DNA from: Rubrivivax sp.
GTDB taxonomy: Bacteria; Pseudomonadota; Gammaproteobacteria; Burkholderiales; Burkholderiaceae_C
Length of the DNA stretch: 39,782 nucleotides
Direction: 5' to 3'
NCBI GenBank assembly: GCA_004210455.1
Contig: SEFA01000062.1
Location: 1-39,782 of the forward strand
The notes under the pieces are model-generated. The model saw only the letters and a list, made by a program, of their open reading frames with translations, ran no database searches and was not told where the DNA came from. Shown piece after piece: positions 16,044 through 36,298 of the stretch (its first letter is position 1; every line of letters begins with the position of its first letter). The position numbers were made by a program, and so were the translations under genes.

Positions 16044-18224
16044 TCACCCCAAGGTGCCCACCACCGCAATCTCCTTCTGATCCGGCACCTCGTTGTACGA
16101 GAGCACGGCCAGCCCGGGCGCGAAGAGCCGGGCGTAGCGCGCCAGCAGCGGCCGCACCTGCGGCATGACGAGCAGCGCCGGCGGCGCGCCCAGCGACTTC
16201 ATCTGGTCCCGCGCCCCCGGCATGTGCTGCTGCAGCTGCGACAGCAGCTGCGGATCCACCGGGTAGCTGTCCAGCTGCACCTTCGCGCCGCCGGCCCGCG
16301 CCTGGTTCAGCGCATTCAGCAGGTGGTTCTCCAGGTCGCTGCCGAGGTTGAACACCTTCAGCGCGCTCAAGGCGCCTTGCGGTCCCTGCAGCTGCGACAC
16401 GATCTGCCGCTTCAGCGCGCAGCGCACCTCCGCCGCCAGCAGCACCGGATCCTTGGTCGCTTCCGCGTTCTCGACCAAGGTCGACGCGATGCTCTGGATG
16501 TCCTTCACCGCCACGCCCTCGGCCAGCAGCAGCCGCATCACCTTCAGCAGTTGCGCGTGCGTGTAGGCCTTGTCCAGCGCGCCGCCGAGCTTGGGCGCGA
16601 TCGCGTTCAGGCGCTCCATCAGCGCGGCGATGTCGTCGAACTTCAGCAGCTCCGGCAACTGCTCGCGCAGCACCTTCGAGACGTGGGTCGCGATCACGCT
16701 CGCCACGTCCACCACCTGGTAACCCAGCCCCAGCGCGTGCGCCTTGTGCTCGGCCTCGATCCACGTGACCGGCATCGCATACGCCGGGTCGAAGCCGGGA
16801 ATCCCGTCCACGTCGCCCCACACCTGGCCCGACGCGATCGCCATCAGCCGGTCCGGATAGACCTCCGCCTGCGCCACCACCGTGCCGCTCAGCGAGATCG
16901 CGTACTGGCTCGGCTTCAGCGACAGGTCGTCCCGCACCGCCAGCGTCGGCAGCAGCACGCCCAGCGTTTCGCTCAGCGACTGCCGCATCCCCCGCACCCG
17001 CGCCTGCAGCGGCGCGCCCTGCGCCGGATCGATCAGTCCCACCAGCTTGTAGCCCAGGCTCACCGACACCGCCTCCACCACCGGCAGCGCGCGCCAGTCG
17101 ATCTCCGGCGGCGTGCCGGCCACCAGCGCGCTCTCCACCGGCGCGGCCGGCTGGATGCGGTCGCGCGAGCGGTCGCCCATCCGCCACGCCGCATAGGCCA
17201 GCGCCACCGCGAACGCGCCGAAGGCCAGCCACGGCATGCCGGGAATCAGCGCCAGCACGCCCATCACGCCCGCCGCGCTGGTCAGCACCTGCGGTGACGC
17301 CAGCATCTGGTCGCTGACCTGCTGCTCGAACTCGCCCGAATCGCTCACCCGCGTCACGATGATCGCGGCCGCCGCCGACAGCAGCAGCGCAGGGATCTGC
17401 GCGACCAGGCCATCGCCGATCGTCAGCAGGCCGTACTGGCGGATCGCCTCGCCCAGCGACAGCCCGTGCATCAACGCGCCGATCGCGACGCCGCCCACCA
17501 GGTTGATCAGCAGGATCAGGATGGACGCGATCGCGTCGCCGCGCACGAACTTGCTCGCGCCGTCCATCGCGCCGTAGAAGTCCGCCTCGGTGCCGACTTC
17601 CTGGCGGCGCTTCTGCGCCTGGTCCTGGTTGATCAGGCCGGCGTTGAGGTCGGCGTCGATCGCCATCTGCTTGCCGGGCAGCGCGTCCAGCGTGAAGCGC
17701 GCCGACACCTCCGAGATCCGTTCCGCGCCCTTGGTGACGACGATGAAGTTCACCACCATCAGGATCACGAAGACCACCAGGCCGACGATGAAGTTGCCGC
17801 CGATGACCACGTTGCCGAAGGCCTCGATCACCTTGCCCGCCGCGTGCGTGCCCTCGTGCCCGTGCAGCAGCACCACGCGCGTGGAGGCGACGTTCATCGA
17901 CAGCCGCATCAGCGTCGTCGCCAGGATCACGCTCGGGAAGATCGAGAAGTCCAGCGGCCGCCTGCTGTTGACGCTGACCAGGATCACCACCAGCGACAGC
18001 ACGATGTTGAAGGTGAACAGCACGTCCAGCAGCACCGGCGGCAGCGGCAGGATCACCATCGCCAGGATGGCCAGCAGGAACAGCGGCGCCGCCACGCGCA
18101 GGTCGCGCAGCTGCTGTCCGAGGCGACCGAAGCGTCCCGCGTTGGCGGCCCCGGCGGAGCGCGAGGAAGCGGCGGACGCGGACGTCGCGGACGATGTGGC
18201 GGAGGAGGGCGGAGAGGACTTCAT
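16044..18224 (-). CDS. flhA: Flagellar type III export gate protein FlhA
   Basis: Inner-membrane export-gate component: nonameric ring that takes substrates from chaperones and uses the proton gradient. The 726 residues comprise a Ser/Ala-rich N-terminus, about eight transmembrane helices (about 45-330), the conserved cytoplasmic loop between helices 4 and 5 (RISEVSARFTLDALPGKQMA, then DADLNAGLINQDQA) and a large C-terminal docking domain ending VPDQKEIAVVGTLG. The open frame extends far upstream, but the start at 18224 overlaps the flhB stop (ATGA), so translation is coupled. It is the last gene of fliM-N-P-Q-R-flhB-flhA. There is no terminator: the stop meets the convergent GHKL gene's stop base to base. 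Confidence 0.96.
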   Translation of the reverse strand: MKSSPPSSATSSATSASAASSRSAGAANAGRFGRLGQQLRDLRVAAPLFLLAILAMVILPLPPVLLDVLFTFNIVLSLVVILVSVNSRRPLDFSIFPSVILATTLMRLSMNVASTRVVLLHGHEGTHAAGKVIEAFGNVVIGGNFIVGLVVFVILMVVNFIVVTKGAERISEVSARFTLDALPGKQMAIDADLNAGLINQDQAQKRRQEVGTEADFYGAMDGASKFVRGDAIASILILLINLVGGVAIGALMHGLSLGEAIRQYGLLTIGDGLVAQIPALLLSAAAAIIVTRVSDSGEFEQQVSDQMLASPQVLTSAAGVMGVLALIPGMPWLAFGAFAVALAYAAWRMGDRSRDRIQPAAPVESALVAGTPPEIDWRALPVVEAVSVSLGYKLVGLIDPAQGAPLQARVRGMRQSLSETLGVLLPTLAVRDDLSLKPSQYAISLSGTVVAQAEVYPDRLMAIASGQVWGDVDGIPGFDPAYAMPVTWIEAEHKAHALGLGYQVVDVASVIATHVSKVLREQLPELLKFDDIAALMERLNAIAPKLGGALDKAYTHAQLLKVMRLLLAEGVAVKDIQSIASTLVENAEATKDPVLLAAEVRCALKRQIVSQLQGPQGALSALKVFNLGSDLENHLLNALNQARAGGAKVQLDSYPVDPQLLSQLQQHMPGARDQMKSLGAPPALLVMPQVRPLLARYARLFAPGLAVLSYNEVPDQKEIAVVGTLG

Positions 18225-19369
18225 TCGGACTCCGGATCGGAGAGATGGCGCGGCACCGGCAGGTCGCCCGCCAGGTTGGGTTCGGTGGGACGGCGGCCCG
18301 CGTGGAAGGCCTTCAGCTGCATCACGTAGCTGAGCACCTGCGCGACCGCCTGGTACAGCGACGCGGGAATCTGCTGCTGCACCTGCGCGCTGTTGTAGAG
18401 CGCGCGCGCCAGAGGCGGCAGCTCCAGTAGCTGCACGCGGTGCTCGCGCGCCAGCGAGCGGATGTAGAGCGCCATCTCGTCGACGCCCTTGGCGACGACG
18501 TAAGGCGCTTCCGCCTTCGTGCTGTCGTAGCGCAGCGCGACCGCGTAGTGCGACGGGTTGACGATGACGACGTCGGCCTCGGGCACGGACTTGCGGACGC
18601 TGCGCCGCGCCAGCTGCTGCTGCAACTGCCGGATGCGCTGGCGCACCTCGGGCCGGCCTTCGTTCTGCTTGTATTCCTCCTTGACCTCCTGCTTGCTCAT
18701 GCGCTGGTTGCGCAGGAACAGCAGGCGCTGCAAGGGCACATCGATCAGGGCGTAGAAGGCGAGCACCGCCGCGAGCGTCAGCAGCCCGTCCATCACCAGC
18801 GAGGCCGCGCGGGCCAGCGCCATCGGCAGGCTCAGCCCCTGCAGCTGCACATACTGCGCCGCGTAGGCGGTCGTCAGCCAATACAGCACGGCGAGCACGC
18901 CGCCCGTCTTCATCAAGGTCGCGGCGAGCTCGGTGTAGTGCTTCGCGCTGAAGAGCCGGCCGAGGTTGCTCAGTGGATTGAGCTTCGAGAACTTGGGCGC
19001 CCATTGCGAAGGCGTGAACACGATGCCGCCGCCCAGCTGCGTCGCGAGGATCACCGCCGCGGGCAGCGCCAGCAACGGCATCACCATCTTCGCGAGCAGC
19101 CACAGCGACTCCTGCGCGGCCTCGCCCCAGAGCGCGTCCAACCCCTGCAACGCATCGTCGCCGCCCAGCGGCGCGAGCGCCAACCGGAACAGCCGCGCGA
19201 AGTCCTCCAGGTAGGACGGCGCGATCATCATCAGCAGCTTCAGTCCGACCAGCAGGCCGACCGCCGCGCCGATGTCCTTGCTGCGCGCGACCTGACCCTG
19301 CTCGCGGGCCTTGCGCAGCTTCTGCTCGGAGGCCTTCTCGCTCTTGTCGGCGGTGTCGGATTCAGCCAT
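18221..19369 (-). CDS. flhB: Flagellar export switch protein FlhB (NPSH variant)
   Basis: Export-gate protein that switches substrate specificity from rod/hook to filament after autocleavage. The 382 residues have the charged N-terminus SEKASEQKLRKAREQGQVAR, four membrane helices (about 33-215), the linker and the cytoplasmic domain. The autocleavage site reads NPSH (Asn271-Pro272-Ser273-His274) in ADVVIVNPSHYAVALRY, where most homologues have NPTH. Asn and Pro, which perform the cyclisation, are intact, so cleavage should still occur. It overlaps fliR by eight bases and flhA by four. A longer C-terminal tail than E. coli (about 30 residues after the conserved domain) is present. Confidence 0.95.
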   Translation of the reverse strand: MAESDTADKSEKASEQKLRKAREQGQVARSKDIGAAVGLLVGLKLLMMIAPSYLEDFARLFRLALAPLGGDDALQGLDALWGEAAQESLWLLAKMVMPLLALPAAVILATQLGGGIVFTPSQWAPKFSKLNPLSNLGRLFSAKHYTELAATLMKTGGVLAVLYWLTTAYAAQYVQLQGLSLPMALARAASLVMDGLLTLAAVLAFYALIDVPLQRLLFLRNQRMSKQEVKEEYKQNEGRPEVRQRIRQLQQQLARRSVRKSVPEADVVIVNPSHYAVALRYDSTKAEAPYVVAKGVDEMALYIRSLAREHRVQLLELPPLARALYNSAQVQQQIPASLYQAVAQVLSYVMQLKAFHAGRRPTEPNLAGDLPVPRHLSDPESE

Positions 19370-20189
19370 GGAATCCTCCAGGTCCGACCATGCCGACGAC
19401 GCCTGCCGCGTCAGGCACGCCGCGCATGCCTTGCTCCAGCATCCGCAGCAGCTGCTGCGTCATGCGCAGGTAGTGCGCCGGCACGTGGGCCAGCATCTGC
19501 GTCAGCATGAAAAGCCCGAACAGCGTGACCAGCGAGTACCCCAGCGAGAACAGGTTGAGCGCCGGCGCCACGCGGTTCAGGAAGCCCATGCCCAGCTGCA
19601 CGACCAGTGTCGCGGCCACCACCGGCATCGCCAGCAGCAGCGCCGCCGAGAACACCCACGCGAGGTTGTAGGCGAGGTTCTGCAAGGTCAGCAGCGACAG
19701 CCCGGCGCCCAGCGGCCAGGCGCGGAAGCTTTCGCCGAGCACGGCAGTGAACAGCAGGTGGCCGTCCATGCCGAAGAAGGCGAGCACGCACAGGATGTTG
19801 AGCAGCGCGCCGACGACGTCCGACGAGCTCCCGTTGATCGGATCGTTCATCACCGCCATCGCCAGGCCGAGCTGCGACGACAGCAGGAAGCCCAGGACCC
19901 CGATCACCGCGATCGCCAGATGGAAGGTGAGGCCCATGGCCAGCCCGAGGACCACCTGCTCGGCGGCGGCCAGCACGCCCTGCATCGAGAAGACCGGGAT
20001 GTGCACGGCGGTCGATTGCGCGATCGGCATCATCACCACCGCCAGCACCAGCGACAGCAGCACACGCGCCGACATCGGCATGCCGGCGTCGCCCATGGTC
20101 GGCGCGGCCGCCAGCATCGCCAGGATGCGGCAGAAGGGCCACCACAGCGCGCTGAGCCACGCGGTGAGCTGGCCGAAGTCGATGTCCAC
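19362..20189 (-). CDS. fliR: Flagellar export gate protein FliR
   Basis: Membrane subunit of the FliPQR export channel. 275 residues with six predicted hydrophobic segments; characteristic stretches are LSALWWPFCRILAMLAAAP, the LGFLLSSQLGLAMAVMNDP segment and LAMPVVAATLVVQLGMGFLNRVAPALNLFSLG. Translation begins at GTG 20189 (GTGGACATC) with GGGAGG nearby, 23 bases after the fliQ stop, the only non-overlapping junction among fliQ-fliR-flhB. The C-terminus ends in an unusual Gly/Val/Met-rich tail (AAGVVGMVGPGGFHG). Confidence 0.94.
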   Translation of the reverse strand: MDIDFGQLTAWLSALWWPFCRILAMLAAAPTMGDAGMPMSARVLLSLVLAVVMMPIAQSTAVHIPVFSMQGVLAAAEQVVLGLAMGLTFHLAIAVIGVLGFLLSSQLGLAMAVMNDPINGSSSDVVGALLNILCVLAFFGMDGHLLFTAVLGESFRAWPLGAGLSLLTLQNLAYNLAWVFSAALLLAMPVVAATLVVQLGMGFLNRVAPALNLFSLGYSLVTLFGLFMLTQMLAHVPAHYLRMTQQLLRMLEQGMRGVPDAAGVVGMVGPGGFHG

Positions 20190-20212
20190 GGGGCGCCTCC
20201 CGACGAGTCCTG

Positions 20213-20482
20213 CTACGACGCCAGCTGCGCCGCGCGCTCGAAGATCGAGACGCAGTAGTCCATCAGCAGGCCCACCATCCAGCGGCCCGCCAGGCCCAGC
20301 ACCAGCAGCGTCACCAGCAGCCGCGGCAGGAAGGCCAGCGTCTGCTCGTTGATCTGCGTCGCGGCCTGGAACAGCGCCACGACCAGGCCCGTCACCAGCC
20401 CCGGCAGGATGAGCACCAGCACCAGCAGCATGGTCAGATGCAGGCTCTCGCCGATCAGGTCGGCCGCGATCTCGGGCGTCAT
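20213..20482 (-). CDS. fliQ: Flagellar export gate protein FliQ
   Basis: Small two-helix membrane protein of the FliPQR pore. 89 residues, the usual family length, with MTPEIAADLIGESLHLTMLL at the start, a first helix LVLILPGLVTGLVVALFQAA, the conserved TQINEQTLAFLPRLL and a second helix LLVTLLVLGLAGRWMVGLL. Its ATG overlaps the fliP stop by four bases (ATGA). Assignment is unambiguous from length, motif and position between fliP and fliR. Confidence 0.95.
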   Translation of the reverse strand: MTPEIAADLIGESLHLTMLLVLVLILPGLVTGLVVALFQAATQINEQTLAFLPRLLVTLLVLGLAGRWMVGLLMDYCVSIFERAAQLAS

Positions 20483-21273
20483 CCCGCCACCCCGCGCACG
20501 CTGGACACCAGCGTGTTCACCGTCAGCGTCCAGCCGTCCACCAGCACGAACAGCAGCAGCTTCAGCGGCAGCGAGATCACCAGCGGCGACAGCATCATCA
20601 TCCCCATCGCCATCAGCACCGAGGACACGACCAGGTCGATCACCAGGAAGGGGATGAAGAGCATGCAGCCGATCTGGAACGCGGTCTTCAGCTCGGACAG
20701 CGTGAAGGCGGCCAGCTTCACCGGGAAGCTGTGGTCCTCGGGTCTGGCGACGTCCGTTTCCCCCGCCAGCTGCGCGATCTGGGCCAGCGCGCTCTTGCCG
20801 GTCTGCGCCAGCATGAAGCGCGACACCGGCTTCTCCGCGATCGCCAGCGCCTGCAACAGCGTGATGCGGTCGCTGTCGTAGGGCAGCATCGCCTGCTCAT
20901 AGACCTGCGTGCCGATGGGCTTCATCACGAGGATCGTCAGGATCAGCGCGATGCCGGTCACCAGCCGGTTCGGCAGGCCCTGCTGCAGGCCCAGCGCCTG
21001 GCGCAGCAGCGACAGCACGATCACGAAGCGGGTGAAGCTCGTCATCATCAGCACCAGCACGGGCAGCAGCCCGAGCAGCGTCATGATCACCAGCACCTGC
21101 GTCTTCAAGGTGAAGTCGCCGCCACCGGCGCCCGCGCCGGCGATGCGGATGGCCGCCGTCGCCGGCTCCGCCGCGACCGACGCGAGCGCGATCAGGCCGC
21201 CCAGCGCGACCAGCCTGAACGTCCACGGGCGGCGCCGCACACGTTCGGCGGCGGTCGCGTCGTCCATCGTCAT
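20479..21273 (-). CDS. fliP: Flagellar export gate protein FliP
   Basis: Core of the export channel, a 5-subunit ring with FliQ and FliR. The 264-residue protein has an N-terminal signal-like segment (LVALGGLIALASVAAEPATA, cleaved in E. coli), then LLGLLPVLVLMMTSFTRFVI, the family pattern LRQALGLQQGLPNRLVTGIA and the C-terminal ELKTAFQIGCMLFIPFLVID plus SVLMAMGMMMLSP. There is no fliO between fliN and fliP, as is usual in lateral-type clusters. Its start overlaps the fliN stop (ATGA). Confidence 0.95.
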   Translation of the reverse strand: MTMDDATAAERVRRRPWTFRLVALGGLIALASVAAEPATAAIRIAGAGAGGGDFTLKTQVLVIMTLLGLLPVLVLMMTSFTRFVIVLSLLRQALGLQQGLPNRLVTGIALILTILVMKPIGTQVYEQAMLPYDSDRITLLQALAIAEKPVSRFMLAQTGKSALAQIAQLAGETDVARPEDHSFPVKLAAFTLSELKTAFQIGCMLFIPFLVIDLVVSSVLMAMGMMMLSPLVISLPLKLLLFVLVDGWTLTVNTLVSSVRGVAG

Positions 21274-21614
21274 GACCCCAGGCGGTCCAGGTCCAGGCCG
21301 TCGATGTCCAGCACGCGCAGCGCGTGGCTGTCGCCGCTGACGACGACCTCGGCATGGCCGATCGGCGTGCCGTTCACCTTGATCACCAGCGGCGCGCCGG
21401 CCAGCGTGTCGAGCTCGACGACGCTGTCGGCCTGCAGCTGCGCGAGGTCATGCAGCGACACGCGCGCCTCGCCGACCTCCAGCGTCAGCGTGACCGGGAT
21501 CTTGCGCATCAGCGCGGGCAGGTCGCGGCCGGCGGGGCGGGACTCGACCACCCGGGCGTCTTCCGCCATCGGTTCGTCGAGCAGGCCGGCGATCAGATCG
21601 GTATCGCTCATCAT
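21270..21614 (-). CDS. fliN: Flagellar motor switch protein FliN
   Basis: C-ring component that with FliM builds the cytoplasmic switch and binds the FliH export complex. Here it has 114 residues, starting at ATG 21614 (a second ATG follows immediately and a TTG precedes it); GGAG sits upstream. The SpoA domain (about 35-105) shows IPVTLTLEVGEARVSLHDLA, the conserved SVVELDTLAGAPLVIKVNG and the end stretch DIDGLDLDRLGS. Short N-terminal extension compared with E. coli (137). The TGA of fliM directly precedes TTGATGATG. Confidence 0.93.
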   Translation of the reverse strand: MMSDTDLIAGLLDEPMAEDARVVESRPAGRDLPALMRKIPVTLTLEVGEARVSLHDLAQLQADSVVELDTLAGAPLVIKVNGTPIGHAEVVVSGDSHALRVLDIDGLDLDRLGS

Positions 21615-21617
21615 CAA

Positions 21618-22499
21618 TCACTCCAGGTCTTGGAAAGAGGTCAGGCACAACTTGCCCTGGTGTTCGGCCACGGCCGCGCTCATCAGCGGCGAGCCCTCGA
21701 CCATCACGGTCGCGTCGGCCAGCCGGATGGGGATCAGCGCGCCGGGCCGCAGGTCCAGCACCGCGCCCAGGTCCAGCTCGCGCTCCAGCAGGCGCGCCTG
21801 CAGCGTCAGGGCCAGGCGATGGTCCAGCGCTTGCTGTTGCGCTGGCGGACGCGAGGGACGGTGCTGCGCGGACAACTGGCGCAGCAGCGGCAGCAGGTAG
21901 GCGCCCGCCAGGGCCAGCGAGATCGCGGCTTCCTGATCGCCGTCGCGCAGCGAGGCGACCAGTTCCCAGCCGTCGGGGCCGAAGGCGGGCAGGGTGCCCC
22001 CCTGAAGCGGCGGCAGATCGTTCTCGAGGGGCAGGTCTTGCCTGGCGTCGCCGTCCGGACGCGAGGCCTGCGCCAGCCACGACACGCACAGGCTGGCGAA
22101 CTGCCCGGCGAGCAGGTGCAGCAATCGATCCTCGGTCGCGGTGGGCGGCGTGTCGGCGGTGGCCAGCGCGGTGTCCGCGCCCAGGCCGAGCCGCCTGGCC
22201 ATCAGCGCCAGCACCAGCGGCCGGTCGATGCGGCAGGCCAGCAAGCCGGCCGGGCCGGCGGCCCGCAGCCAGCGCAGCGCATCGCCCGCGTCCCGAGACG
22301 CGTCCGGCAGCGGACGCAGCGTCAGCGCCTGCAGTTCGTAGCGGCTGTGATAACGGCGGTTCCACGGCTGCACGAGCAGGCGCTGAAGCGCCTCGCGCAG
22401 GCGCTGGGCCACCTGCGGCAGCAGGTGCACCGGGCGGCCCAGTCTGCGCGGATCGAGCGCGGCGGGCCGGTGTGTCTGAGCGGTTGGCGACGGGGTCAT
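21618..22499 (-). CDS. fliM: Flagellar motor switch protein FliM, short form without CheY-binding motif
   Basis: C-ring protein. 293 residues, clearly shorter than E. coli FliM (334). Residues about 20-200 fit the CheC-like middle domain, though weakly (RRLGLGAD where others have GGxG), and 220-293 form the SpoA domain (DLGAVLDLRPGALIPIRLAD). The start reads MTPSPTAQTHRPAALDPRR, without the (L/I)SQxEIDALL motif that binds CheY-P in chemotactic motors. This is seen directly. It may therefore be insensitive to CheY or use another regulator. First gene of the fliMNPQR-flhBA operon, start overlapping a short upstream frame; promoter lies in the following 1-kb gap. Confidence 0.88.
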   Translation of the reverse strand: MTPSPTAQTHRPAALDPRRLGRPVHLLPQVAQRLREALQRLLVQPWNRRYHSRYELQALTLRPLPDASRDAGDALRWLRAAGPAGLLACRIDRPLVLALMARRLGLGADTALATADTPPTATEDRLLHLLAGQFASLCVSWLAQASRPDGDARQDLPLENDLPPLQGGTLPAFGPDGWELVASLRDGDQEAAISLALAGAYLLPLLRQLSAQHRPSRPPAQQQALDHRLALTLQARLLERELDLGAVLDLRPGALIPIRLADATVMVEGSPLMSAAVAEHQGKLCLTSFQDLE

Positions 22500-22830
22500 C
22501 TGGTGATCCAGAAAAGGAAAGTGGCGTTTTGAAAAAACGTCGACGCAAGGTCGTATAACCGACGAATTCTAGGAATCGATGGTGACTTAGACCAGCATTG
22601 GAACTGCTGTATCGAAGCATGCGGGAAATAAATCACAACTGGCCAGCCACGAGTCGCACATCGCAAAATCTGTCCGATTAAGAGCACTCCGAAGACAGTT
22701 GCAAAAATACCCACGAACACCGCGAGGTGGATTGATTTGTCACATTTATCAATCCAGAAACAAAATCGACTTATTCAAAGGCAAATGCGCGAACAGCGGA
22801 TCACCATTCTGGGAATATCGGTGGTGATTC

Positions 22831-22844
22831 GTGACATACGTCAC
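22831..22844 (+). promoter_or_regulatory. CRP/FNR-type palindrome upstream of the riboswitch
   Basis: GTGACATACGTCAC (GTGA-N6-TCAC), followed by A, is the half-site arrangement of CRP-family regulators. It lies about 70-80 bases before the aptamer, and about 82 bases before the start expected from TTGTTG-N17-TACAGT, an acceptable class I activator distance. Which CRP-family protein binds, if any, is unknown. Confidence 0.45.
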
Positions 22845-22883
22845 AGTGTCGTACGCTGTTTTGGTGCGGTGCAAAATGGGTTC

Positions 22884-22912
22884 TTGTTGCGCACCCTCAC
22901 AGTGGCTACAGT
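22884..22912 (+). promoter_or_regulatory. Weak candidate promoter of the riboswitch-fliE transcript
   Basis: TTGTTG (22884-22889), 17 bases, TACAGT (22907-22912). Both boxes are imperfect (about 3/6 and 4/6 to the sigma-70 consensus), but transcription would begin near 22919, right at the aptamer's 5' edge, as is usual for riboswitches. A weak promoter would fit dependence on the CRP-like site. Confidence 0.3.
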
Positions 22913-22916
22913 CCGG

Positions 22917-23040
22917 ACACATCAGGGCACACCCGAGCGAAAGCCGGGGTCGCAAAGCCTCCGGTCTACCGTCGGGCGCTCGCTGGAAACTCTTCCAGCC
23001 GGACGCCGGACCACGATAGCGGGGTTGCCAGACCTGAGTC
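22917..23040 (+). promoter_or_regulatory. c-di-GMP-I (GEMM-I) riboswitch
   Basis: The plus strand carries the hallmark GEMM-I pattern: AGGGCACACC, a GAAA-capped hairpin (CCCGAGC-GAAA-GCCGGG), CGCAAAGCCTCCGGTCTA, a variable second hairpin capped by GAAAC and TAGCGGGGTTGCC at 23017-23029. Flanking ATCAGG and CCTGAG are complementary and can close the element. Aligned with the Vibrio Vc2 aptamer from memory, the ligand-contacting positions are present: G20 (22926), A47 (22954) and C92 (about 23020). A G at position 20 favours c-di-GMP over cGAMP. It reads toward fliE, so it should tune the MS-ring/export-ATPase operon to cellular c-di-GMP. Only one copy is seen; whether it switches on or off is not decidable from sequence. 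Confidence 0.87.
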
Positions 23041-23081
23041 TGCGAGCCGCGTGACGCGTGGTTCACAGGCGCTCGCCTGCC

Positions 23082-23104
23082 AGGCCCCACCCGGGCTTGT
23101 TGTG
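23082..23104 (+). terminator. Possible expression platform of the riboswitch
   Basis: AGGCCC and GGGCTT (23082-23087 with 23093-23098, one wobble) form a stem over CACCC, followed by GTTGTG. This resembles a weak intrinsic terminator about 45 bases after the aptamer; a preceding CAGGCG-CT-CGCCTG inverted repeat (23066-23079) could compete with it. The T-tract is poor, so confidence is low. Confidence 0.3.
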
Positions 23105-23154
23105 ACCCTGCCTGCCCTCGCCGAGGTGCGCCCGTCTTGCAGAGAGAGGACGGA

Positions 23155-23187
23155 CATGGTCATTCACAGACATCTTTTCATTCCCTG
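23155..23187 (+). other. Ten-codon leader frame with strong ribosome site
   Basis: ATG 23155 follows AGAGAGAGGA at ideal spacing and encodes MVIHRHLFIP before TGA. It sits between the riboswitch and fliE. It might be a translated leader peptide or just the remains of an older gene start. No attenuator-like codon run is apparent. Confidence 0.25.
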
Positions 23188-23443
23188 AACCGGCCCGCGA
23201 CGGGGCGATCGGACTGCCGTCCGCGTGCCTCGCCGAGCCCGAAGGTGGTCGCGCCGCCGCATCGGTTCCGGATATTCACCAGACCAACGACGAATCAATA
23301 TCGCTGCCGATTTGGCGCGAGGGAGATGTTTTGTCCGAAATGCTGGGAATGAAACTGTCTGTAAATATCAGAAGAATGTCGTCGCAAAAATATGAGCCGC
23401 CGACGCGGTGACAAATAGAAAGGCGACATTCAAGTCCGGCGTG

Positions 23444-23508
23444 AATCTCCGCAACGGAGATTGAAGACAGAGCTGGCCAAGCCGGTCCATTCACCAGAGG
23501 GAATGGAC
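23444..23508 (+). repeat. Two perfect hairpins in the fliE leader
   Basis: First: AATCTCCG (23444-23451), CAA, CGGAGATT (23455-23462). Second: GTCCATTC (23485-23492), an eight-base loop, GAATGGAC (23501-23508). Both eight-base stems are perfect and stand in the less GC-rich leader 80-140 bases before fliE. Neither has a T-run. They could be mRNA processing, protein-binding or small-RNA structures; function unknown. Confidence 0.5.
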
Positions 23509-23586
23509 GGATAAGGTCAATGAATGGTCACGGGAAAACCCGCGCCGTCCGGCGTGGTCAGGTCCCTTATTGCCCGGAGCAAAAGT

Positions 23587-23934
23587 ATGTCGGCTGTGAT
23601 GCTCAATGCCGCCATCGGCCAATCGTCGATGGCGTCCCTGCTGAAACAGGATGCGGTGCGCCTGCAGCAGGAAGCGCAAGCGCTTTCACAGGGCGTAGTC
23701 CCAGGCTCCACCCATAACCAAAACGAGATCAGCTTCGAGCAGGTGCTGCGGCGCGTGGACGACCGCGACCAGGCCGCCGCTGCCCGCATGGAAGCGGTCG
23801 AGCGCGGCGAGAGCGACGACCTCGTCGGCGCGATGCTCGCCAGCCAGGAAGCCAGCCTGTCCTTCTCGATGCTCATGCAGGTCCGCAACAAGGTCGCGGG
23901 CGCCGTGGACGAGCTGATCAAGATGCAGCTCTGA
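23587..23934 (+). CDS. fliE: Flagellar hook-basal body protein FliE
   Basis: Periplasmic adaptor joining the MS ring (FliF) to the proximal rod (FlgB) and the first exported substrate. The 115-residue protein starts at ATG 23587 (MSAVMLNAAIGQSS) with CCCGGAGC upstream; the frame is open to 23524 without a ribosome site. The conserved C-terminal helical half is clear: ISFEQVLRRVDDRDQAAAAR, LVGAMLASQEASLSFSMLMQ and VRNKVAGAVDELIKMQL. First gene of fliE-F-G-H-I-J, downstream of the c-di-GMP riboswitch. fliF follows after 19 bases. Confidence 0.94.
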   Translation: MSAVMLNAAIGQSSMASLLKQDAVRLQQEAQALSQGVVPGSTHNQNEISFEQVLRRVDDRDQAAAARMEAVERGESDDLVGAMLASQEASLSFSMLMQVRNKVAGAVDELIKMQL

Positions 23935-23953: not shown

Positions 23954-25843
23954 ATGAACGAGCTGCAGACCCTCCAGAACGCGACCGGCGCCCCAGACGA
24001 CGCCGCGCCCGCGTGGCGCCGCCGCCTCGGCCAGGCGCTGGGCGGCCTCAACAGGGCCGCACCCTCGGCCGACGCCGGCATGCGCGGTCTGCGCGGTCTC
24101 GCGCCGCTGCTGATCCTGGCGACCGTCGTCACCGCGCTGGTGCTGATGCTGCTGTGGCGCGACCAGGCCGGCTACAAGCCGGTCTTCGGTCAGCGCGAGC
24201 ATGTGCCCACCGCCGACGTGCTGTCGGTGCTCGACGCCGAACACATCGCCTACCGGCTGCATCCCGAGAGCGGTCAGGTGCTGGTGCCCGACTCCGACCT
24301 GGGCCGCGCGCGCATGCTGCTCGCCGCCAAGGGCGTCGTGGCCAGGCTGCCGGCCGGCCTGGAGCTGATGGACCAGAACGACCCCCTGGGCGTGAGCCAG
24401 TTCGTGCAGGACATCCGATTCCGCCGCGGGCTCGAAGGCGAACTCGCGCAGAGCATGATGGCGCTGGACGCCGTCGAGGGCGCGCGCGTCCACCTGTCCG
24501 TCGCGAAGAGCAGCTCCTTCGTGCTCAACGACGGGCAGAAGAGCTCGGCCTCGGTGGTGCTGACGCTCAAGCCGGGCCGCTCGCTCAACCACGAGCAGAT
24601 CGCCGCGGCCATCAACCTGGTGGCCGGCTCGGTGGCCAACCTCGATCCGTCGCGCGTCAGCCTGGTCGACCAGCAGGGCAACCTGCTGTCGGCGCGCGTC
24701 GACATGAGCGAGGGCTTCGACGGCGGCGCGCAGGGCAACGAGGCGCAGCGCCGCATCCAGGACGACATCCGCCGCAACGTGCACGAGCTGCTGGCGCCGG
24801 TGCTGGGGGAGCAGAACTATCGCCTGAGCGTCACCGCCGACGTCAACAACGACCGCGTGCAGGAAACCCGCGAGCAGTACGGCGACGCGCCCAAGCTGAC
24901 CAATGAAGCCATGCGCGAGGAGCAGGACCGGGAGCGCATCGCGCTGGGCGTGCCGGGCTCGTTGAGCAACCGGCCGCCGGCCGCGCTGGCGGCGGCCGCC
25001 GCGTCCGCGGCGCAAGGCGAGGATCCCAACGGTGCGAACGCCAATGCCAACAGCAACACCGCGCGCAAGAACGCCGCCACGCGCCAGTACGCCTACGACC
25101 GCTCGATCACGCAGGTGAAGAAGAGCCGCGGCCGGCTGGAGCGCCTGAGCGTGGCGGTGCTGTTGAACACCGCGGCCGCGCCCGGCGGCGCGAAGGACTG
25201 GACGGCGTCCGACCTGCGGAAGGTCGAGCAGCTGCTGGGCGGCGGCCTGGGCATCGACACGCAGCGCGGCGACAAGTTGAGCGTTTCCACGCTCGCCTTC
25301 CCGGCGCCGCCGGTCGTCGAGCCCTGGTACCAGCAACGCGACACCCTCGTCGAGTTCGGCGGCTGGGGCGCCTACACGCTGGCCGCGCTGCTCGGCTACC
25401 TGCTGCTGGCGCGTCCGCTGATTCGCATGGGTCAGCACGCGCTGGGCATGGGCGGCGCGCGCAAGGACCCTCGCAACGAGGGCCGCAACGACGGCCGCGC
25501 CGATCGCAGCGGCGGGTCCGGGATCACGCCGCTGGAACCGCTGTCCGGCGCGTCGGGCGGCACGGGATCCGGGGCGCAAGCCGGGATGTCGCCGGCGGGC
25601 GAGGGCGCACCGGCGCTGGTCGGACCGGCCGGCGGTCTCCTCGGCGGCACCGGGGGCGCCGGTGGCGCGGCGTCGTCGGGCTCCGCGGTCACCACGCTCC
25701 TCGAGAACTACGAACTGCCGCCGCCGGGCTCTCCGGTGGACGTGCTGGTGGACCACCTGAAGGTGCTCGCGGCCAAGGAGCCGGAGCGGGTGGCGGAAGT
25801 CGTCAAGCAATGGGTGCAGAAGAAAAATGGCCGAAGCGAGTGA
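23954..25843 (+). CDS. fliF: Flagellar MS-ring protein FliF
   Basis: Inner-membrane ring that anchors the rod and surrounds the export gate. 629 residues, longer than E. coli (552). First transmembrane helix at 49-68 (LAPLLILATVVTALVLMLLW), then ring-building motifs: NDPLGVSQFVQDIRFRRGLE, ARVHLSVAKSSSFV and SVVLTLKPGRSLNHEQI. An Ala/Asn-rich linker (about 340-370) precedes the YAYDRSITQVKKSRGRLERL region, and the second helix is near 471-489. The cytoplasmic end has a Gly-rich low-complexity insert of about 90 residues, then the FliG-binding tail DVLVDHLKVLAAKEPERVAE to VVKQWVQ. It overlaps fliG by 17 bases. Confidence 0.95.
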   Translation: MNELQTLQNATGAPDDAAPAWRRRLGQALGGLNRAAPSADAGMRGLRGLAPLLILATVVTALVLMLLWRDQAGYKPVFGQREHVPTADVLSVLDAEHIAYRLHPESGQVLVPDSDLGRARMLLAAKGVVARLPAGLELMDQNDPLGVSQFVQDIRFRRGLEGELAQSMMALDAVEGARVHLSVAKSSSFVLNDGQKSSASVVLTLKPGRSLNHEQIAAAINLVAGSVANLDPSRVSLVDQQGNLLSARVDMSEGFDGGAQGNEAQRRIQDDIRRNVHELLAPVLGEQNYRLSVTADVNNDRVQETREQYGDAPKLTNEAMREEQDRERIALGVPGSLSNRPPAALAAAAASAAQGEDPNGANANANSNTARKNAATRQYAYDRSITQVKKSRGRLERLSVAVLLNTAAAPGGAKDWTASDLRKVEQLLGGGLGIDTQRGDKLSVSTLAFPAPPVVEPWYQQRDTLVEFGGWGAYTLAALLGYLLLARPLIRMGQHALGMGGARKDPRNEGRNDGRADRSGGSGITPLEPLSGASGGTGSGAQAGMSPAGEGAPALVGPAGGLLGGTGGAGGAASSGSAVTTLLENYELPPPGSPVDVLVDHLKVLAAKEPERVAEVVKQWVQKKNGRSE

Positions 25844-26864
25844 TTTCATTCCGCCCGGCAGCGCCGCGTCGCTGAGCCCGGTCGAACGTGCCGCCATCGT
25901 GCTGCTGAGCATGGGCGAGGAGCCCGCGGCCGCCGTGCTGCGGTGCCTGTCGCGCGACGAACTGCTGGACGTCACGCAGGTGATGTCGCGGCTGTCGGGC
26001 ATCAAGGTCGACTGGGTGCGCGCCTCGCTGCAGACCTTCTTCGACGACTACCGCGAGCAGAGCGGCGTGCACGGCGCGTCGCGCACCTACCTGAAGCGCT
26101 CGCTGGACCTGGCGCTGGGCGGCCAGATCGCGTCCAGCGTGCTCAACAGCATCTACGGCGACGCGATCCGGCCCAAGATGCAGCGTCTGCAATGGGCCTC
26201 GCCGAAGTGGCTGGCCGAGCAGATCAGCCATGAGCACCAGCGCATGCAGGCGGTGTTCCTGGCCTTCCTGCCGAGCGCGCTGGCCGGCGACGTCGTCGCC
26301 GCGCTGCCAGAAGGTCCGGCCGGCGGCCGTGACCGCGTGCTGCTGCAGATGGCGCGGCTGTCGGAGGTCGACGCCGAACTGCTGATGGAACTCGAGGACC
26401 TCGTCGAGCGCTGCCTGGCCGGCCTCGGCCAGCAGGGCGCGGCCGTCGAGGGCGTCAGGCAGGTCGCCGAGATCCTCAACCGCATGCCCGGCCAGCGCCA
26501 GCAGATGGTGGAGCTCCTGCGCGCGCACGACCCGGGCGTGGTCGGCGAGATCGAGTCCTCGATGTACGAGTTCTTCATGCTCTCGCGCCAGAGCGAGGCC
26601 ACGCTGACGCGCCTGATCGAGGAAGTGCCGCTGGAGCTGTGGGCGGTCGCGCTCAAGGGCGCCGAGCCGCCGGTGCGCGACGCGCTGCTGGCCGCGATGC
26701 CGCGCCGCCAGGCGCAGAGCTTCGAGGACCTGATGCGCCGCGGCGGCCCGATGCCGATGAGCCGCGTCGAGCAGGCGCGCGCCGAGATCATGGCGCAGGT
26801 CAAGGCGCTGGTGGACGCGGGCGAGATCCAGGTCCAGCTGTTCGCCGAGGACGTCGTCGAATGA
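25827..26864 (+). CDS. fliG: Flagellar motor switch protein FliG
   Basis: Rotor protein that touches the stator and transmits torque. 345 residues in three domains: N-terminal FliF-binding (SPVERAAIVLLSMGEEPAAA), middle domain with the EHQRMQAVFLAFLPSALAGD segment (EHPQ-like, here EHQR), and C-terminal torque domain. In the last, ALKGAEPPVRDALLAAMPRR retains Lys264 and Arg281 (E. coli numbering, aligned from memory). The following QAQSFEDLMRRGGPMP keeps Asp288 but has Leu at 289 and Pro at 297, where E. coli has Asp and Arg. The helix normally VDVDDRSIQ reads SRQSEATLT. Start at 25827 lies inside fliF; the stop overlaps the fliH start. Confidence 0.95.
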   Translation: MAEASDFIPPGSAASLSPVERAAIVLLSMGEEPAAAVLRCLSRDELLDVTQVMSRLSGIKVDWVRASLQTFFDDYREQSGVHGASRTYLKRSLDLALGGQIASSVLNSIYGDAIRPKMQRLQWASPKWLAEQISHEHQRMQAVFLAFLPSALAGDVVAALPEGPAGGRDRVLLQMARLSEVDAELLMELEDLVERCLAGLGQQGAAVEGVRQVAEILNRMPGQRQQMVELLRAHDPGVVGEIESSMYEFFMLSRQSEATLTRLIEEVPLELWAVALKGAEPPVRDALLAAMPRRQAQSFEDLMRRGGPMPMSRVEQARAEIMAQVKALVDAGEIQVQLFAEDVVE

Positions 26865-27652
26865 AGACGCTTCGCCCGCATCGCTTCCCGCCGCTGGCCC
26901 AGGTCAGCCGGGCGTCCTCGCTGCTCGACGGGCAGTCGGGCGCGCAGCTGCAGGCCAGCCTCGCGCAGGGCTTCCAGGAGGGGCTGGCCAAGGGCTACGA
27001 GGAAGGGTATGCGAGCGGCCTCCAGACCGGCACCGCCGAGGCACGCAGCGCCGCCGAGGCCAGCGGCCATGCCGCGGGTCTCGCCGCCGGTCGCGAGGAC
27101 GCGCGCGCTCTGCTGGTCAGCCCCGTGGCCGCGGTCGACACGCTGCTCACGCATCTCTGCAAGTTGCAGCAGGACTACCAGTCCGCGATGCGGCGCGAGG
27201 TCGTCGAGCTGGTCGAGCGCGTCGCCCGCCAGGTCATCCGCGCGGAGCTCACGCTGCGTCCGACGCAGTTGATGGCGCTGGTCGACGAGACCCTGTCCTC
27301 GATGCCGCCGACGCGAGACGGCGTCGAGGTCTTCCTGAATCCCGAGGACAGGCAGCGGCTGCTGGAACTGGGACCGGAGCGCGTGCACGAGTGGACGCTG
27401 CATGCGGACGCGTCTCTGGACCCGGGCGAGTGCCGCGTCATCGCCGGCGGACGCGAGGCCGACGCCGGCTGCCGCCAGCGCCTGGCCGCCTGCATGGACC
27501 AGGTGCGGGGTCAGTTGATGCCCGAGACGACCATCGATGGAGAGGGCGGCGCTTCGCAGCAGCCGCAGTCATCCGTCGATCCGGACGCGCATGCTTCCAC
27601 CGCGGCTGGCGCATTCGATGCGCTCGGCGCGACCGGGGAGGGCGCACGATGA
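26861..27652 (+). CDS. fliH: Flagellar export ATPase regulator FliH
   Basis: Stator-like regulator of the FliI ATPase, linking it to FliN at the C-ring. The 263-residue protein begins at ATG 26861, overlapping fliG by four bases. It has the N-terminal GxxxG-type helix repeat (QGFQEGLAKGYEEGYASGLQ, then HAAGLAAGRED), a coiled region and the conserved C-terminal VVELVERVARQVIRAELTLR and FLNPEDRQRLLELGPER, ending with an extra low-complexity tail. The GxxxG pattern and position before fliI make the call firm. Confidence 0.93.
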   Translation: MKTLRPHRFPPLAQVSRASSLLDGQSGAQLQASLAQGFQEGLAKGYEEGYASGLQTGTAEARSAAEASGHAAGLAAGREDARALLVSPVAAVDTLLTHLCKLQQDYQSAMRREVVELVERVARQVIRAELTLRPTQLMALVDETLSSMPPTRDGVEVFLNPEDRQRLLELGPERVHEWTLHADASLDPGECRVIAGGREADAGCRQRLAACMDQVRGQLMPETTIDGEGGASQQPQSSVDPDAHASTAAGAFDALGATGEGAR

Positions 27653-28980
27653 TCAGCATTGCGCTGCGTCGCGTCGAACTCGGCGACGTGCCGGTGTCGA
27701 CGCCGACCGGCCGCCTGGTCGGCGCTTCGGGTCTGCTGCTCGAAGCGAGCGGCTGCACGTTGCGCACGGGCCAGCGCTGCCTGATCGAGCAGCGGCTCGA
27801 AGGCGCGGTCGAGGGCTCGCCCGACGGCTGGCTGGCGGCGCAGGTCGTGGGCTTCCGCGACCAGGTCGCCTACCTGATGCCTTTCAAGAAGCCCGACGGC
27901 CTGGCCGCCGGCGCGCGTGTGCTGCCCGCGCCGGAGCGGTCGTCGCTGATGATCGGTCCGCAGTGGCTGGGCCGCATCGTCAACGGTCTCGGAGAACCGA
28001 TCGACGGCCGCGGCCGTCTCGGCGGCGACCTGCCGCTGCAGATGGTGCCGCCCAAGGTCAATCCGCTGCGCAAGAAGCCGGTGCATGAGCCGCTGGACGT
28101 CGGCGTGCGCGCCATCAACGGCCTGCTGACGCTGGGCCGCGGCCAGCGCGTCGGCCTGATGGCGGGGTCCGGCGTCGGCAAGAGCGTGCTGCTGGGCCTG
28201 ATCACGCGCAACACGGTCGCCGACGTCGTCGTCGTCGGCCTGATCGGCGAACGCGGTCGAGAGGTGCGCGAGTTCATCGACCTCTCCCTCGGCGCCGAGG
28301 GCCTGGCGCGCGCGGTCGTCGTGGTGGCGCCGGCGGACGAGTCGCCCCTGATGCGCCTGCGCGCCACCGAGCTGTGCCACAGCATCGCCGCCCACTACCG
28401 CGACCAGGGACAGCACGTGCTGCTGCTGGTGGACTCGCTGACGCGTTACGCGATGGCGCGGCGAGAGGTCGCGCTGGCGCTCGGCGAGCCGCCGGCCACG
28501 CGCGGCTACCCGCCGTCGGTCTTCAGCCTGCTGCCGGAACTCGTCGAAAGCGCCGGCAACGGCGAGGGCGACGGCAGCATGAGCGCGATCTACACGGTCC
28601 TCGCCGAGGGCGACGACCAGCAGGATCCGGTGGTCGACACGGCCCGCGCGATCCTGGACGGCCACATCGTGCTCACGCGCGCGCTGGCCGAGCGCGGCCA
28701 CTATCCCGCCATCGACGTGGCGCAGTCGATCAGTCGCTGCATGGCGCTGGTCGCCGACCGCGGCCAGCAGCAGGCCGCGCGCGAACTCAAGCAGCTGATG
28801 GCCCGCTTCGAGCAGGTCCGCGAGCTGATGCCGCTGGGTGCCTACGTGCCCGGCGCCGATCCGGCCACCGATCGCGCCGTCGCGCTGTGGCCGCGCATCG
28901 AGGCCTTCCTGCACCAGGGGACCCATGAAGGCGCGCCGCTGGCGCGCACGAAAACCCAACTGACGGAGGTGCTCGCATGA
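27649..28980 (+). CDS. fliI: Flagellum-specific export ATPase FliI
   Basis: Hexameric ATPase (F1-beta related) that unfolds and delivers substrates to the export gate. 443 residues, the standard length. Walker A AGSGVGKSV (172-180, Lys178), GERGREVREFI (200-210), Walker B VLLLVDSLTRYAMARRE (Asp262), GEPPATRGYPPSVFSLLPEL (279-298) and GSMSAIYTVLAEGDD (309-323) are all intact, so it should be active. The frame is open upstream, but ATG 27649 overlaps the fliH stop by four bases and is the family start. Confidence 0.96.
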   Translation: MISIALRRVELGDVPVSTPTGRLVGASGLLLEASGCTLRTGQRCLIEQRLEGAVEGSPDGWLAAQVVGFRDQVAYLMPFKKPDGLAAGARVLPAPERSSLMIGPQWLGRIVNGLGEPIDGRGRLGGDLPLQMVPPKVNPLRKKPVHEPLDVGVRAINGLLTLGRGQRVGLMAGSGVGKSVLLGLITRNTVADVVVVGLIGERGREVREFIDLSLGAEGLARAVVVVAPADESPLMRLRATELCHSIAAHYRDQGQHVLLLVDSLTRYAMARREVALALGEPPATRGYPPSVFSLLPELVESAGNGEGDGSMSAIYTVLAEGDDQQDPVVDTARAILDGHIVLTRALAERGHYPAIDVAQSISRCMALVADRGQQQAARELKQLMARFEQVRELMPLGAYVPGADPATDRAVALWPRIEAFLHQGTHEGAPLARTKTQLTEVLA

Positions 28981-29513
28981 GCGGCAGCCAGGATTCGCTG
29001 CGTCGCAACCTGGGCAGGCTGGCCGAGCTGCAGCAGCGCCAGCTCGATCGCCAGCAGGCGAAGCTGGTTGCGCAGCAGCAGCTGTGCCAGCGCGTGCAGG
29101 GCACCGTCGACCGGTTGGAGGCCCTCGGCGCGCAGGCCACGCTGAGCGGCGTCGCGCTGCCCGGCCTGGCGCAGAACAGCGCCGCCTACAAGCAGGCGAT
29201 GCGCGGCTGGGCCGACCAGCAGCGCGCCGAACTGGCGCGCCGCGAGGCTGAGCTGGCGCTGGCCCAGGCGGACACGCTGGCCGCCGCCCGCAAGCAGGAG
29301 ACGCTGCGTCAACTGGTCGACCGCGCCGACGCGCGCGCCCGCACCGAGCAGGCCCGCCGCGACCAGAAGGGCCAGGACGAGATCGCGTCGCAAAGCGCCC
29401 AGAACGACAGCGCCTATGGCGGCCTGAGCGCGTTCGGCGCTCTCGGCGCTCTCGGCACTTTCGGCGGCTTCGGCCCGAAGACCCGCAGCACCGACCGGGG
29501 GAATCGTGGCTGA
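28977..29513 (+). CDS. fliJ: Flagellar export protein FliJ
   Basis: Coiled-coil stalk protein that inserts into the FliI ring and contacts FlhA. 178 residues, Gln/Arg/Ala-rich and helical: LAELQQRQLDRQQAKLVAQQ at the start, then AELARREAELALAQADTLAA in the second helix. The C-terminal 35 residues differ: a Gly/Phe/Ala repeat (GGLSAFGALGALGTFGGFG) from short DNA repeats, then basic residues. That tail is probably a recent low-complexity addition. Start overlaps fliI by four bases. Last gene before the fliD promoter. Confidence 0.9.
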   Translation: MSGSQDSLRRNLGRLAELQQRQLDRQQAKLVAQQQLCQRVQGTVDRLEALGAQATLSGVALPGLAQNSAAYKQAMRGWADQQRAELARREAELALAQADTLAAARKQETLRQLVDRADARARTEQARRDQKGQDEIASQSAQNDSAYGGLSAFGALGALGTFGGFGPKTRSTDRGNRG

Positions 29514-29520
29514 GCGCCCG

Positions 29521-29548
29521 TTTAAGTTCCGGCCGCGGCCGGTCGCCC
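29521..29548 (+). promoter_or_regulatory. Candidate flagellar sigma promoter for the fliD operon
   Basis: TTTAAGT (29521-29527), 11 bases, CCGGTCGCCC (29539-29548), matching the flagellin element at 1559-1586 in both blocks and spacing. It starts seven bases after the fliJ stop and lies about 45 bases before the fliD start. It should drive the late operon fliD to flgJ. Confidence 0.62.
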
Positions 29549-29593
29549 ACCACAAGGGAAGTCTCAACCTTGGACCTTGTGGAGGAGTCCGCC

Positions 29594-30952: not shown

Positions 30953-30978
30953 ACGCCGGGAAGACCGATGACCACACG

Positions 30979-31365
30979 ATGAGCCACGACGCCTACCAGA
31001 GCTACCAGTCCGTCCATCTGCACGCGCAGACCGCGCAGGCCTCGCCGCTCCAGCTCGTGCTGGTGCTGATGGACGGCCTGCTCGACGAGCTCGCCCGCGC
31101 CCGCGCCCACATCGAGGCGCGGCGTTTCGAGCTCAAGGCCGCCAGCCTGGACAAGTGCGTCGCCATCATCAACGGCCTGTCCAGCGCGCTGGACCTGGAC
31201 ACGGGCGGGGAGGTCGTGGTCAGCCTCGCCCGGCTCTACGACTACTGCGCCGAGCGGCTGTACCGCGCCGGCATCGAGCTGGACGTCGGTCCCGTCGACG
31301 AGGTCCGCGGCCTGCTCGCGCAGATCCGCGGCGGCTGGTTGGGCGTGCAGGCCAGACACGGCTGA
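30979..31365 (+). CDS. fliS: Flagellin export chaperone FliS
   Basis: Cytoplasmic chaperone that binds the flagellin C-terminus and prevents early polymerisation (LafC). 128 residues, all helical, with YQSYQSVHLHAQTAQASPLQ, the conserved LQLVLVLMDGLLDELARARA and IINGLSSALDLDTGGEVVVS, then LARLYDYCAERLYRAG. A four-codon mini-frame (ATG 30968 to TGA 30982, MTTR) with its own GGGAAG overlaps this start, which may couple translation to it. fliT follows after 13 bases. Confidence 0.93.
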   Translation: MSHDAYQSYQSVHLHAQTAQASPLQLVLVLMDGLLDELARARAHIEARRFELKAASLDKCVAIINGLSSALDLDTGGEVVVSLARLYDYCAERLYRAGIELDVGPVDEVRGLLAQIRGGWLGVQARHG

Positions 31366-31378
31366 GAAAGGAACGGCG

Positions 31379-33440: not shown

Positions 33441-33490
33441 CGGCACCGCCGCACGCGACCCGCCCCACCCCGCCCACAGGAAACAGCACC

Positions 33491-34216: not shown

Positions 34217-34248
34217 CGACCGGCGCAACAGGAAAGAAGGAAACGGAC

Positions 34249-36259: not shown

Positions 36260-36298
36260 AGAGGCCCCATGCGCACCAGCAGATCCAAGGGTGAACGA

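Follow-up and report, generated by a model that had tools for sequence, protein, structure and literature searches.

The locus

The window analysed here is a stretch of 39,782 nucleotides (contig SEFA01000062.1 of the Rubrivivax sp. assembly GCA_004210455.1), and it carries two divergent blocks of lateral flagellar genes with an RNA leader between them. The features are as follows.

16044 to 22499, minus strand: divergent lateral flhA-flhB-fliR-fliP-fliN-fliM genes (Pfam, NCBIfam)
22831 to 22844, no strand assigned: GTGAC-N4-GTCAC dyad, CRP/FNR-family-like, centred about 82 bp upstream of the predicted transcript start
22884 to 22912, plus strand: predicted sigma70-type promoter (TTGTTG at 22884-22889, a 17-bp spacer, TACAGT at 22907-22912), its -10 conserved in 22 of 27 leaders
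22916 to 23032, plus strand: c-di-GMP-I aptamer of the C23/U42 subtype (RF01051, 57.2 bits), contact bases invariant in 29 aptamers
22948 to 22955, plus strand: aptamer core segment GGUCGCAA, which contains A47 and is the target of the anti-core strand; its complement lies downstream in 22 of 27 leaders
23029 to 23042, plus strand: hairpin P4 (CAGAC-CUGA-GUCUG), 100% of cells paired in 22 leaders, four of its five pairs never varying
23046 to 23062, plus strand: hairpin P5 (GCCGCG...CGUGGU), 97.0% of cells paired, two-sided changes in three of six pairs
23082 to 23098, plus strand: hairpin P7 (AGGCCC...GGGCUU), 97.7% of cells paired, two-sided changes in six of six pairs
23100 to 23107, plus strand: anti-core strand UUGUGACC, which complements 22948-22955 and in the 22 leaders has every one of its 176 cells paired
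23156 to 23188, plus strand: short upstream open reading frame, AUG to UGA (MVIHRHLFIP), with the Shine-Dalgarno-like stretch AGAGAGAGG before it and a conserved start position
23587 to 23934, plus strand: lateral fliE, first gene of the co-oriented block (Pfam FliE), start conserved
23954 to 37918, plus strand: fliF, G, H, I, J, fliD, fliS, fliK, a fliL-like gene, a FliA-type sigma factor gene, motA, motB, flgM and a FlgJ-type muramidase gene (Pfam, NCBIfam)

The gene towards which the leader is read is fliE (Pfam FliE, 56 bits), and its start at 23587 sets the predicted leader at about 667 nt. The order of the genes, flhAB-fliRPNM and then fliEFGHIJ with a lafBCEFSTU-like block, is that of Flag-2 lateral clusters; in Escherichia coli 042 the Flag-2 order is reported as LfhAB-LfiRQPNM-LafK-LfiEFGHIJ (PMC7526173), and the downstream order of LafB, C, E, F, S, T and U is also shared with the Flag-2/Laf clusters. 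The individual matches vary in strength. flhB and fliP exceed the Pfam cut-offs, flhA, fliR and fliN fall slightly under those of NCBIfam, and fliM is matched weakly (24.8 bits vs a cut-off of 219.6). The matches to fliL (weak), motB and FlgJ are under the NCBIfam cut-offs, which are strict equivalog cut-offs, and the LafU and MotB models score alike (188 bits each, both under cut-off). fliQ was not found or scored in the cluster, and the open reading frame at the place of lafD gave no match. Beside the flagellar block, at 13998-16040 and 12056-14074, lie a partial match to a BbrUII-type restriction enzyme (101.8 bits, cut-off 550) and a DUF4874/DUF4832 gene.

Strong FliF-family matches are found on two contigs of the genome, C22 (178 bits) and C27 (229 bits), and with a second one on C27 the cluster in the window looks like a secondary flagellar system. 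This and the Flag-2 order bear out the first-pass annotation, which had called the cluster lateral. Two weaker YscJ/FliF-family matches, at 76018-76518 on contig C99 (103 bits) and at 61507-62007 on contig C119 (80 bits), possibly represent two type III secretion systems of the same genome.

The riboswitch leader thus sits between lateral fliM and fliE, in the slot that LafK occupies in E. coli 042 Flag-2, much as the earlier note had proposed when it placed the element where LafK acts in Vibrio. No open reading frame of more than 113 amino acids lies wholly inside this slot (22533-23586), so that it holds no gene of LafK size, and the two open reading frames scanned there gave no Pfam match.

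The aptamer

A cmscan search of the whole window returned a sole Rfam match at gathering thresholds, RF01051 (c-di-GMP-I, GEMM-I), at 22916-23032 on the plus strand (57.2 bits, E 9.3e-9, model positions 1-87 of 87). The first-pass annotation had named this search as the check on its call of a GEMM-I riboswitch, whose signature motifs are present in the sequence as it quoted them; with a gathering cut-off of 35 bits the score is far above chance. Beyond RF01051, a permissive scan of 22400-23800 gave just a sub-threshold match to a CRISPR-repeat model (E 3.3). The interval had been drawn at 22917-23040. The aptamer in it is real but ends near 23032, and 23040 does not hold as a right-hand limit either, as conserved features continue to about 23160. 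All three contact bases are present, although two of them had been numbered one base early (G22926 and A22954, correctly 22927 and 22955): in Vc2 numbering, 22927 corresponds to G20, 22955 to A47 and 23028 to C92. None of the three varies among the 29 aligned aptamers of the genus, one of the 30 loci (L023) having been left out. Judged by the covariance model and the contact bases, membership of the c-di-GMP-I family is secure.

Which ligand would such an aptamer bind? GEMM-I variants with 3',3'-cGAMP as ligand exist, and the window aptamer has the unusual changes of a C23/U42 subtype (C at 22930, Vc2 A23; U at 22950, Vc2 A42), which might be read in favour of cGAMP. Against this, position 20 is G in all 29 genus aptamers, as in c-di-GMP-selective members, and G at this position favours c-di-GMP over cGAMP. 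A cGAMP riboswitch is therefore highly improbable, and from comparison with the modelled family the aptamer almost certainly would bind c-di-GMP. The C23/U42 subtype (GGGCACACC...GGGGUCGCAAAG) is itself widespread in the family, and positions 23 and 42 seem to change together.

Conservation of the association with fliE

Mitsuaria chitosanitabida and Roseateles aquatilis belong to the same genus as the window genome, and their FliF proteins are 84% and 82% identical to that of the window over the best segment. Among 16 genomes of the genus, RF01051 is matched in 14 (E up to 0.01) and a close FliE relative (E below 1e-30) is present in nine; in each of these nine an RF01051 match starts 533-705 nt upstream of lateral fliE on the same strand. 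The seven genomes that lack lateral fliE hold eight RF01051 matches, and none of the seven that were aligned shows the C23/U42 letters.

A riboswitch precedes fliE in 16 of 61 named fliF loci (model R1). Rfam, run on 30 of the 61, confirmed it in 15 of 15 Roseateles-group loci and in one of the 15 others (Aquincola). The 45 loci without it are mostly from Massilia/Telluria, and three of them do not extend far enough for fliE to be seen; no Massilia-type locus in this set has a riboswitch before fliE. The gap between fliM and fliE measures about 0.8-1.3 kb where the riboswitch is present and a few hundred bases in most loci where it is not, and a wide gap with no riboswitch is seen in Jeongeupia, Aquabacterium A7-Y and Janthinobacterium CG3. 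In Jeongeupia (L072:2639-3256) the slot is filled by a LuxR-type response regulator gene, that is, by neither LafK nor a riboswitch. The notion that LafK and the riboswitch are strict alternatives was rejected, given this LuxR-type gene and the gap of only a few hundred bases in most Massilia-type clusters.

A search with the C23/U42 aptamer signature (up to two mismatches) found 72 places in 55 of 399 genomes of the family. Outside the genus there are 68, of which 16 lie upstream of lateral fliE (eight of these duplicate named loci, as judged by contig or sequence) and 52 have no fliE relative in the stretch examined, mostly 1.5 kb on each side. Removal of repeats leaves a set of 27 distinct leaders, which are orthologous and not independent of one another. 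In 27 of 27 fliE lies downstream of the aptamer and in sense; the leaders were chosen for fliE, yet they include every genus or named locus with a riboswitch at lateral fliE or fliF. The first-pass reading of the riboswitch towards fliE is thus upheld, both by the Pfam FliE match downstream in the window and by this common orientation. From the conserved synteny, a transcript from the riboswitch very probably runs into fliE.

Promoter and upstream dyad

A -10 hexamer stands at a fixed distance before the aptamer in 22 of the 27 leaders (TACAGT in 21, TACATT in one), and the transcript of the window is predicted to start near 22919. The promoter at 22884-22912, with its weak -35, was not listed by the promoter scan. 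The dyad is 92-94 bases before the GGG of the aptamer in 19 of the 27 leaders, 84-86 in three, and absent in five, as counted with a pattern that is loose and post hoc.

The leader downstream of the aptamer

Conservation does not stop with the aptamer. The anti-core strand UUGUGACC lies directly after P7, about 70 nt beyond the aptamer, and it is the same 22 of 27 leaders that carry the -10, this strand and the start codon of the short open reading frame. Structure counts, pairing probabilities and start-codon counts refer to these 22; the five leaders without UUGUGACC were left out. In addition to P4, P5 and P7 there is a less regular hairpin, P6 (73.9% of cells paired, two-sided changes in two of four pairs). 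The counted structure as a whole has 95.3% of its cells paired; on none of the five measures did a single one of 500 shuffles equal the observed value.

A complement of the core segment GGUCGCAA occurs downstream in 22 of 27 leaders, where shuffling would give 0.9. When every 8-mer of the aligned 49-nt aptamer part is treated in this way, those free of overlap with GGUCGCAA have their complement in at most five of the 27. The variants UUGUGGCC and UUGCGGCU of the anti-core strand keep all pairs, with five changed cells of 176, all still paired; the aptamer side of the helix is invariant, so that no two-sided covariation supports it. Three of the leaders without UUGUGACC (L079, L117, L176) carry GCGACCC, which pairs with the overlapping GGGUCGC and is found also in six of 52 non-flagellar loci. 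L114 and L120 show no comparable complement of 7 bp.

RNAalifold, given the 22 leaders and no structure, picks seven of the eight core/anti-core pairs. For the window RNA (22920-23187) the folding energy is 3.8 standard deviations lower than that of shuffled sequences, and its minimum free energy structure has eight of eight. The mean pairing probability of this helix is 0.96 in the window and at least 0.84 in 18 of the 22 leaders; it is low (0.03-0.38) in L046, L050, L054 and L062. In a test of single sequences against shuffles the result was weak: for roughly every second flagellar row, 70-115 of the 200 shuffles were as good as the real sequence. The case for complementarity between core and anti-core strand rests on the position-wise test over the 27 leaders and on conservation.

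Is the anti-core strand peculiar to flagellar leaders? Of the 52 non-flagellar loci of the same subtype, six were dropped for want of a recognisable aptamer end, and in the remaining 46 the complement of GGUCGCAA occurs in three (1.4 expected), with positions 40-130 searched vs 55-130 in the flagellar leaders. The contrast is not absolute, since overlapping GC-rich segments have an excess in the non-flagellar leaders too (CGGGGUCG in 17 of 46, 6.9 expected; GGGGUCGC in 15, 7.1 expected). We gave up the idea that U42 exists for the sake of the anti-core strand, since the subtype is found at 72 places, 52 of the 68 outside the genus are not near lateral fliE, and 3 of 46 have the complement. By eye, two non-flagellar GEMM-I leaders (L029:1501-1622 and L032:1501-1593, each with 150 nt beyond) have an apparent core-complementary strand, in L032 GGAAGUUUUGCG against CGCAAAGCUUCC, with a start codon close by. 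Platforms that invade the core may be common in this genus.

The core holds A47 and bases that are paired in the aptamer, and the core/anti-core helix and the bound aptamer should for that reason exclude each other. An exchange between the two, as judged from conservation and complementarity, appears quite probable.

A start codon follows UUGUGACC at 44-68 nt in all of the 22 leaders (ATG in 21, GTG at +49 in the other), and other 24-nt stretches have an ATG in 3-10 of the 22. If a strict Shine-Dalgarno criterion is applied, 15 of 22 retain an ATG between +32 and +79 (nine and six in the two adjacent 24-nt stretches), compared with 0-2 of 22 in any stretch elsewhere; some leaders have two competing ATGs. 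The start lies about 290-525 nt before fliE, the low end being the GTG of L054, worked out from its 340 nt. The peptides range from 8 to about 80 amino acids and have no conservation past the first codons. We accordingly rejected the idea that the interval between riboswitch and fliE encodes a conserved small protein, as the start region is conserved and length and sequence are not. We regard translation of the short open reading frame as probable.

The stretch nearer to fliE is not without conserved pieces, and these could represent another promoter. In the window an inverted repeat, GTCCATTC-N8-GAATGGAC, lies at 23485-23508, about 80 nt upstream of fliE, with altered forms in two near relatives (by eye). 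In four other leaders (L026, L020, L022, L024) a repeat like TCAAATATGTC...GACATATTTGA is kept 100-250 nt before fliE in an otherwise diverged leader, again by eye; it is a possible operator or second promoter.

These pieces bear on a different reading of the locus, namely that the riboswitch belongs to a stand-alone short RNA, a sensor or sponge, and that fliE has its own nearer promoter. The merRNA of Bdellovibrio offers a precedent (PMC3627812), and the strongly conserved part of the leader does stop about 290-525 nt before fliE, with conserved blocks near fliE in some leaders. An RNA of the merRNA type has no conserved gene downstream, however, and here fliE follows in 27 of 27; the element keeps the same place and orientation before fliE in these 27 leaders and is absent from 42 sister clusters with a visible fliE. 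The conserved translation start also argues for an mRNA leader. Such a stand-alone RNA seems improbable.

A possible switch and its sign

How might such a leader work? A promoter just upstream would yield a transcript with the c-di-GMP-I aptamer as its 5' end. With no ligand, UUGUGACC (23100-23107) would pair with the core GGUCGCAA (22948-22955), including A47, on which the ligand stacks; binding of c-di-GMP would lock the core and free the anti-core strand. This exchange would set the level of translation of the short open reading frame that starts at 23156, and its translation would decide whether RNA polymerase (by Rho-type polarity) or the message survives the untranslated stretch of about 400 nt to fliE. 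The co-oriented block also contains motAB and the gene of the FliA-type sigma factor, and through them the switch would extend to the lateral system as a whole. The reading we favour, with some reserve, is of a switch, probably of the OFF type, in which ligand binding and anti-core pairing are mutually exclusive and control the block with fliEFGHIJ, motAB and the FliA-type sigma factor gene.

The output step is the more tentative part, and polarity coupled to the short open reading frame falls somewhat short of an even chance. A role of Rho in this leader is conjecture. In the window leader no strong C-over-G stretch was found (the maximum is 1.43 over 78 nt, and other leaders range from 1.07 to 2.82). 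Control of a short open reading frame by a riboswitch together with Rho has been reported for the Mbox riboswitch of Mycobacterium tuberculosis and for B12 riboswitches (PMC12810186, PMC11260477). As described there, these resemble the scheme proposed here in logic (riboswitch, translation of a short open reading frame, Rho-sensitive leader) and differ in ligands and genes.

Could the leader be a plain attenuator, the aptamer and the P7 region forming a ligand-dependent terminator and the short open reading frame being incidental? The P7 hairpin, which immediately precedes the anti-core strand, is rich in GC and covaries strongly, and in Cd1 of Clostridioides difficile the terminated product rises with c-di-GMP (PMC6366702). 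P7 is not followed by a U-run, however (UGUUGUGACC), a terminator scan of the plus strand from 22600 to 23700 found no terminator-like site, on which ground an intrinsic terminator was rejected, and the start codon of the short open reading frame is conserved. Attenuation of this kind appears improbable.

The sign of the core/anti-core switch is a separate matter. By analogy with Cd1 and with the usual opposition of c-di-GMP to flagella, an OFF switch would be the better bet, by about two to one in our estimation. Lateral flagella are surface organs in other bacteria, and a rise of c-di-GMP at a surface might instead turn the lateral operon on. Locking the aptamer in silico does open the Shine-Dalgarno region in the window (accessibility 0.35 to 0.49) and in L044-L047, L049, L061 and L151; over the 22 leaders its accessibility goes up in eight and down in four. 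The start codon, on the other hand, loses more than 0.05 in accessibility in 11 of the 22 and gains in three. With the shifts thus mixed between start codon and Shine-Dalgarno region, accessibility modelling was set aside as a guide to direction. An ON switch also runs against the general opposition of c-di-GMP to flagella and against Cd1, which is an OFF switch, and one chance in four is about what we would give it.

A more far-reaching proposal is that the riboswitch replaced LafK as the gate of the entire secondary system, by way of a strand that invades the ligand pocket, a short open reading frame whose translation protects from Rho, and the CRP-like site upstream. This is rather unlikely as a whole; if true, one RNA leader would integrate cAMP-type and c-di-GMP signals for lateral motility.

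Relation to known systems and significance

Vibrio cholerae Vc1 and Vc2 have the same aptamer family and contact bases as the window and stand before other genes. Vc1 lies before gbpA and is described as a positive regulator (PMC4744006). A close parallel is Cd1 (Cdi-1-3), a GEMM-I aptamer in the leader of the C. difficile flgB operon, which is likewise an early flagellar operon and includes the gene of a flagellar sigma factor; Cd1 differs in giving a terminated transcript with c-di-GMP and in serving the peritrichous flagella of a Firmicute (PMC6366702). Rho is reported to act in the flgB leader, in a paper that regards the riboswitch there as Rho-independent (PMC7446863). Compared with Cd1, the window leader belongs to a secondary system, the lateral flagella of beta-proteobacteria; it shows no intrinsic terminator and has a core-complementary strand and a short upstream open reading frame. 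The Flag-2/Laf clusters differ from the window in the element between the LfhAB-LfiRQPNM and LfiEFGHIJ groups, which is LafK in E. coli 042 Flag-2 (PMC7526173) and the riboswitch leader in the window.

GEMM-I control of a flagellar operon with a sigma factor gene is already known, then, from Cd1; the novelty lies in a lateral operon as target, a position in the LafK slot and a platform that is conserved. A literature search, with subscription papers mostly outside it, found no c-di-GMP riboswitch for a lateral flagellar cluster or for this bacterial group. The genome of the window has a second c-di-GMP-I riboswitch (contig C71, 11831-11932, 57.9 bits), directly before an FhaC/ShlB-type two-partner secretion transporter gene. 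A c-di-GMP programme that takes in lateral motility as well as surface proteins would be consistent with this arrangement.

Discussion of how c-di-GMP controls flagella has mostly centred on proteins (PilZ brakes, transcription factors). The conserved leader suggests that in Roseateles-type bacteria c-di-GMP may directly gate the building of lateral flagella. If so, the first lateral operon would be controlled by c-di-GMP directly at its RNA, in a block that also encodes a FliA-type sigma factor and the stator. The exchange between core and anti-core strand, with the short open reading frame, would also offer a testable expression platform for GEMM-I riboswitches that have no obvious intrinsic terminator, in culturable Roseateles strains.
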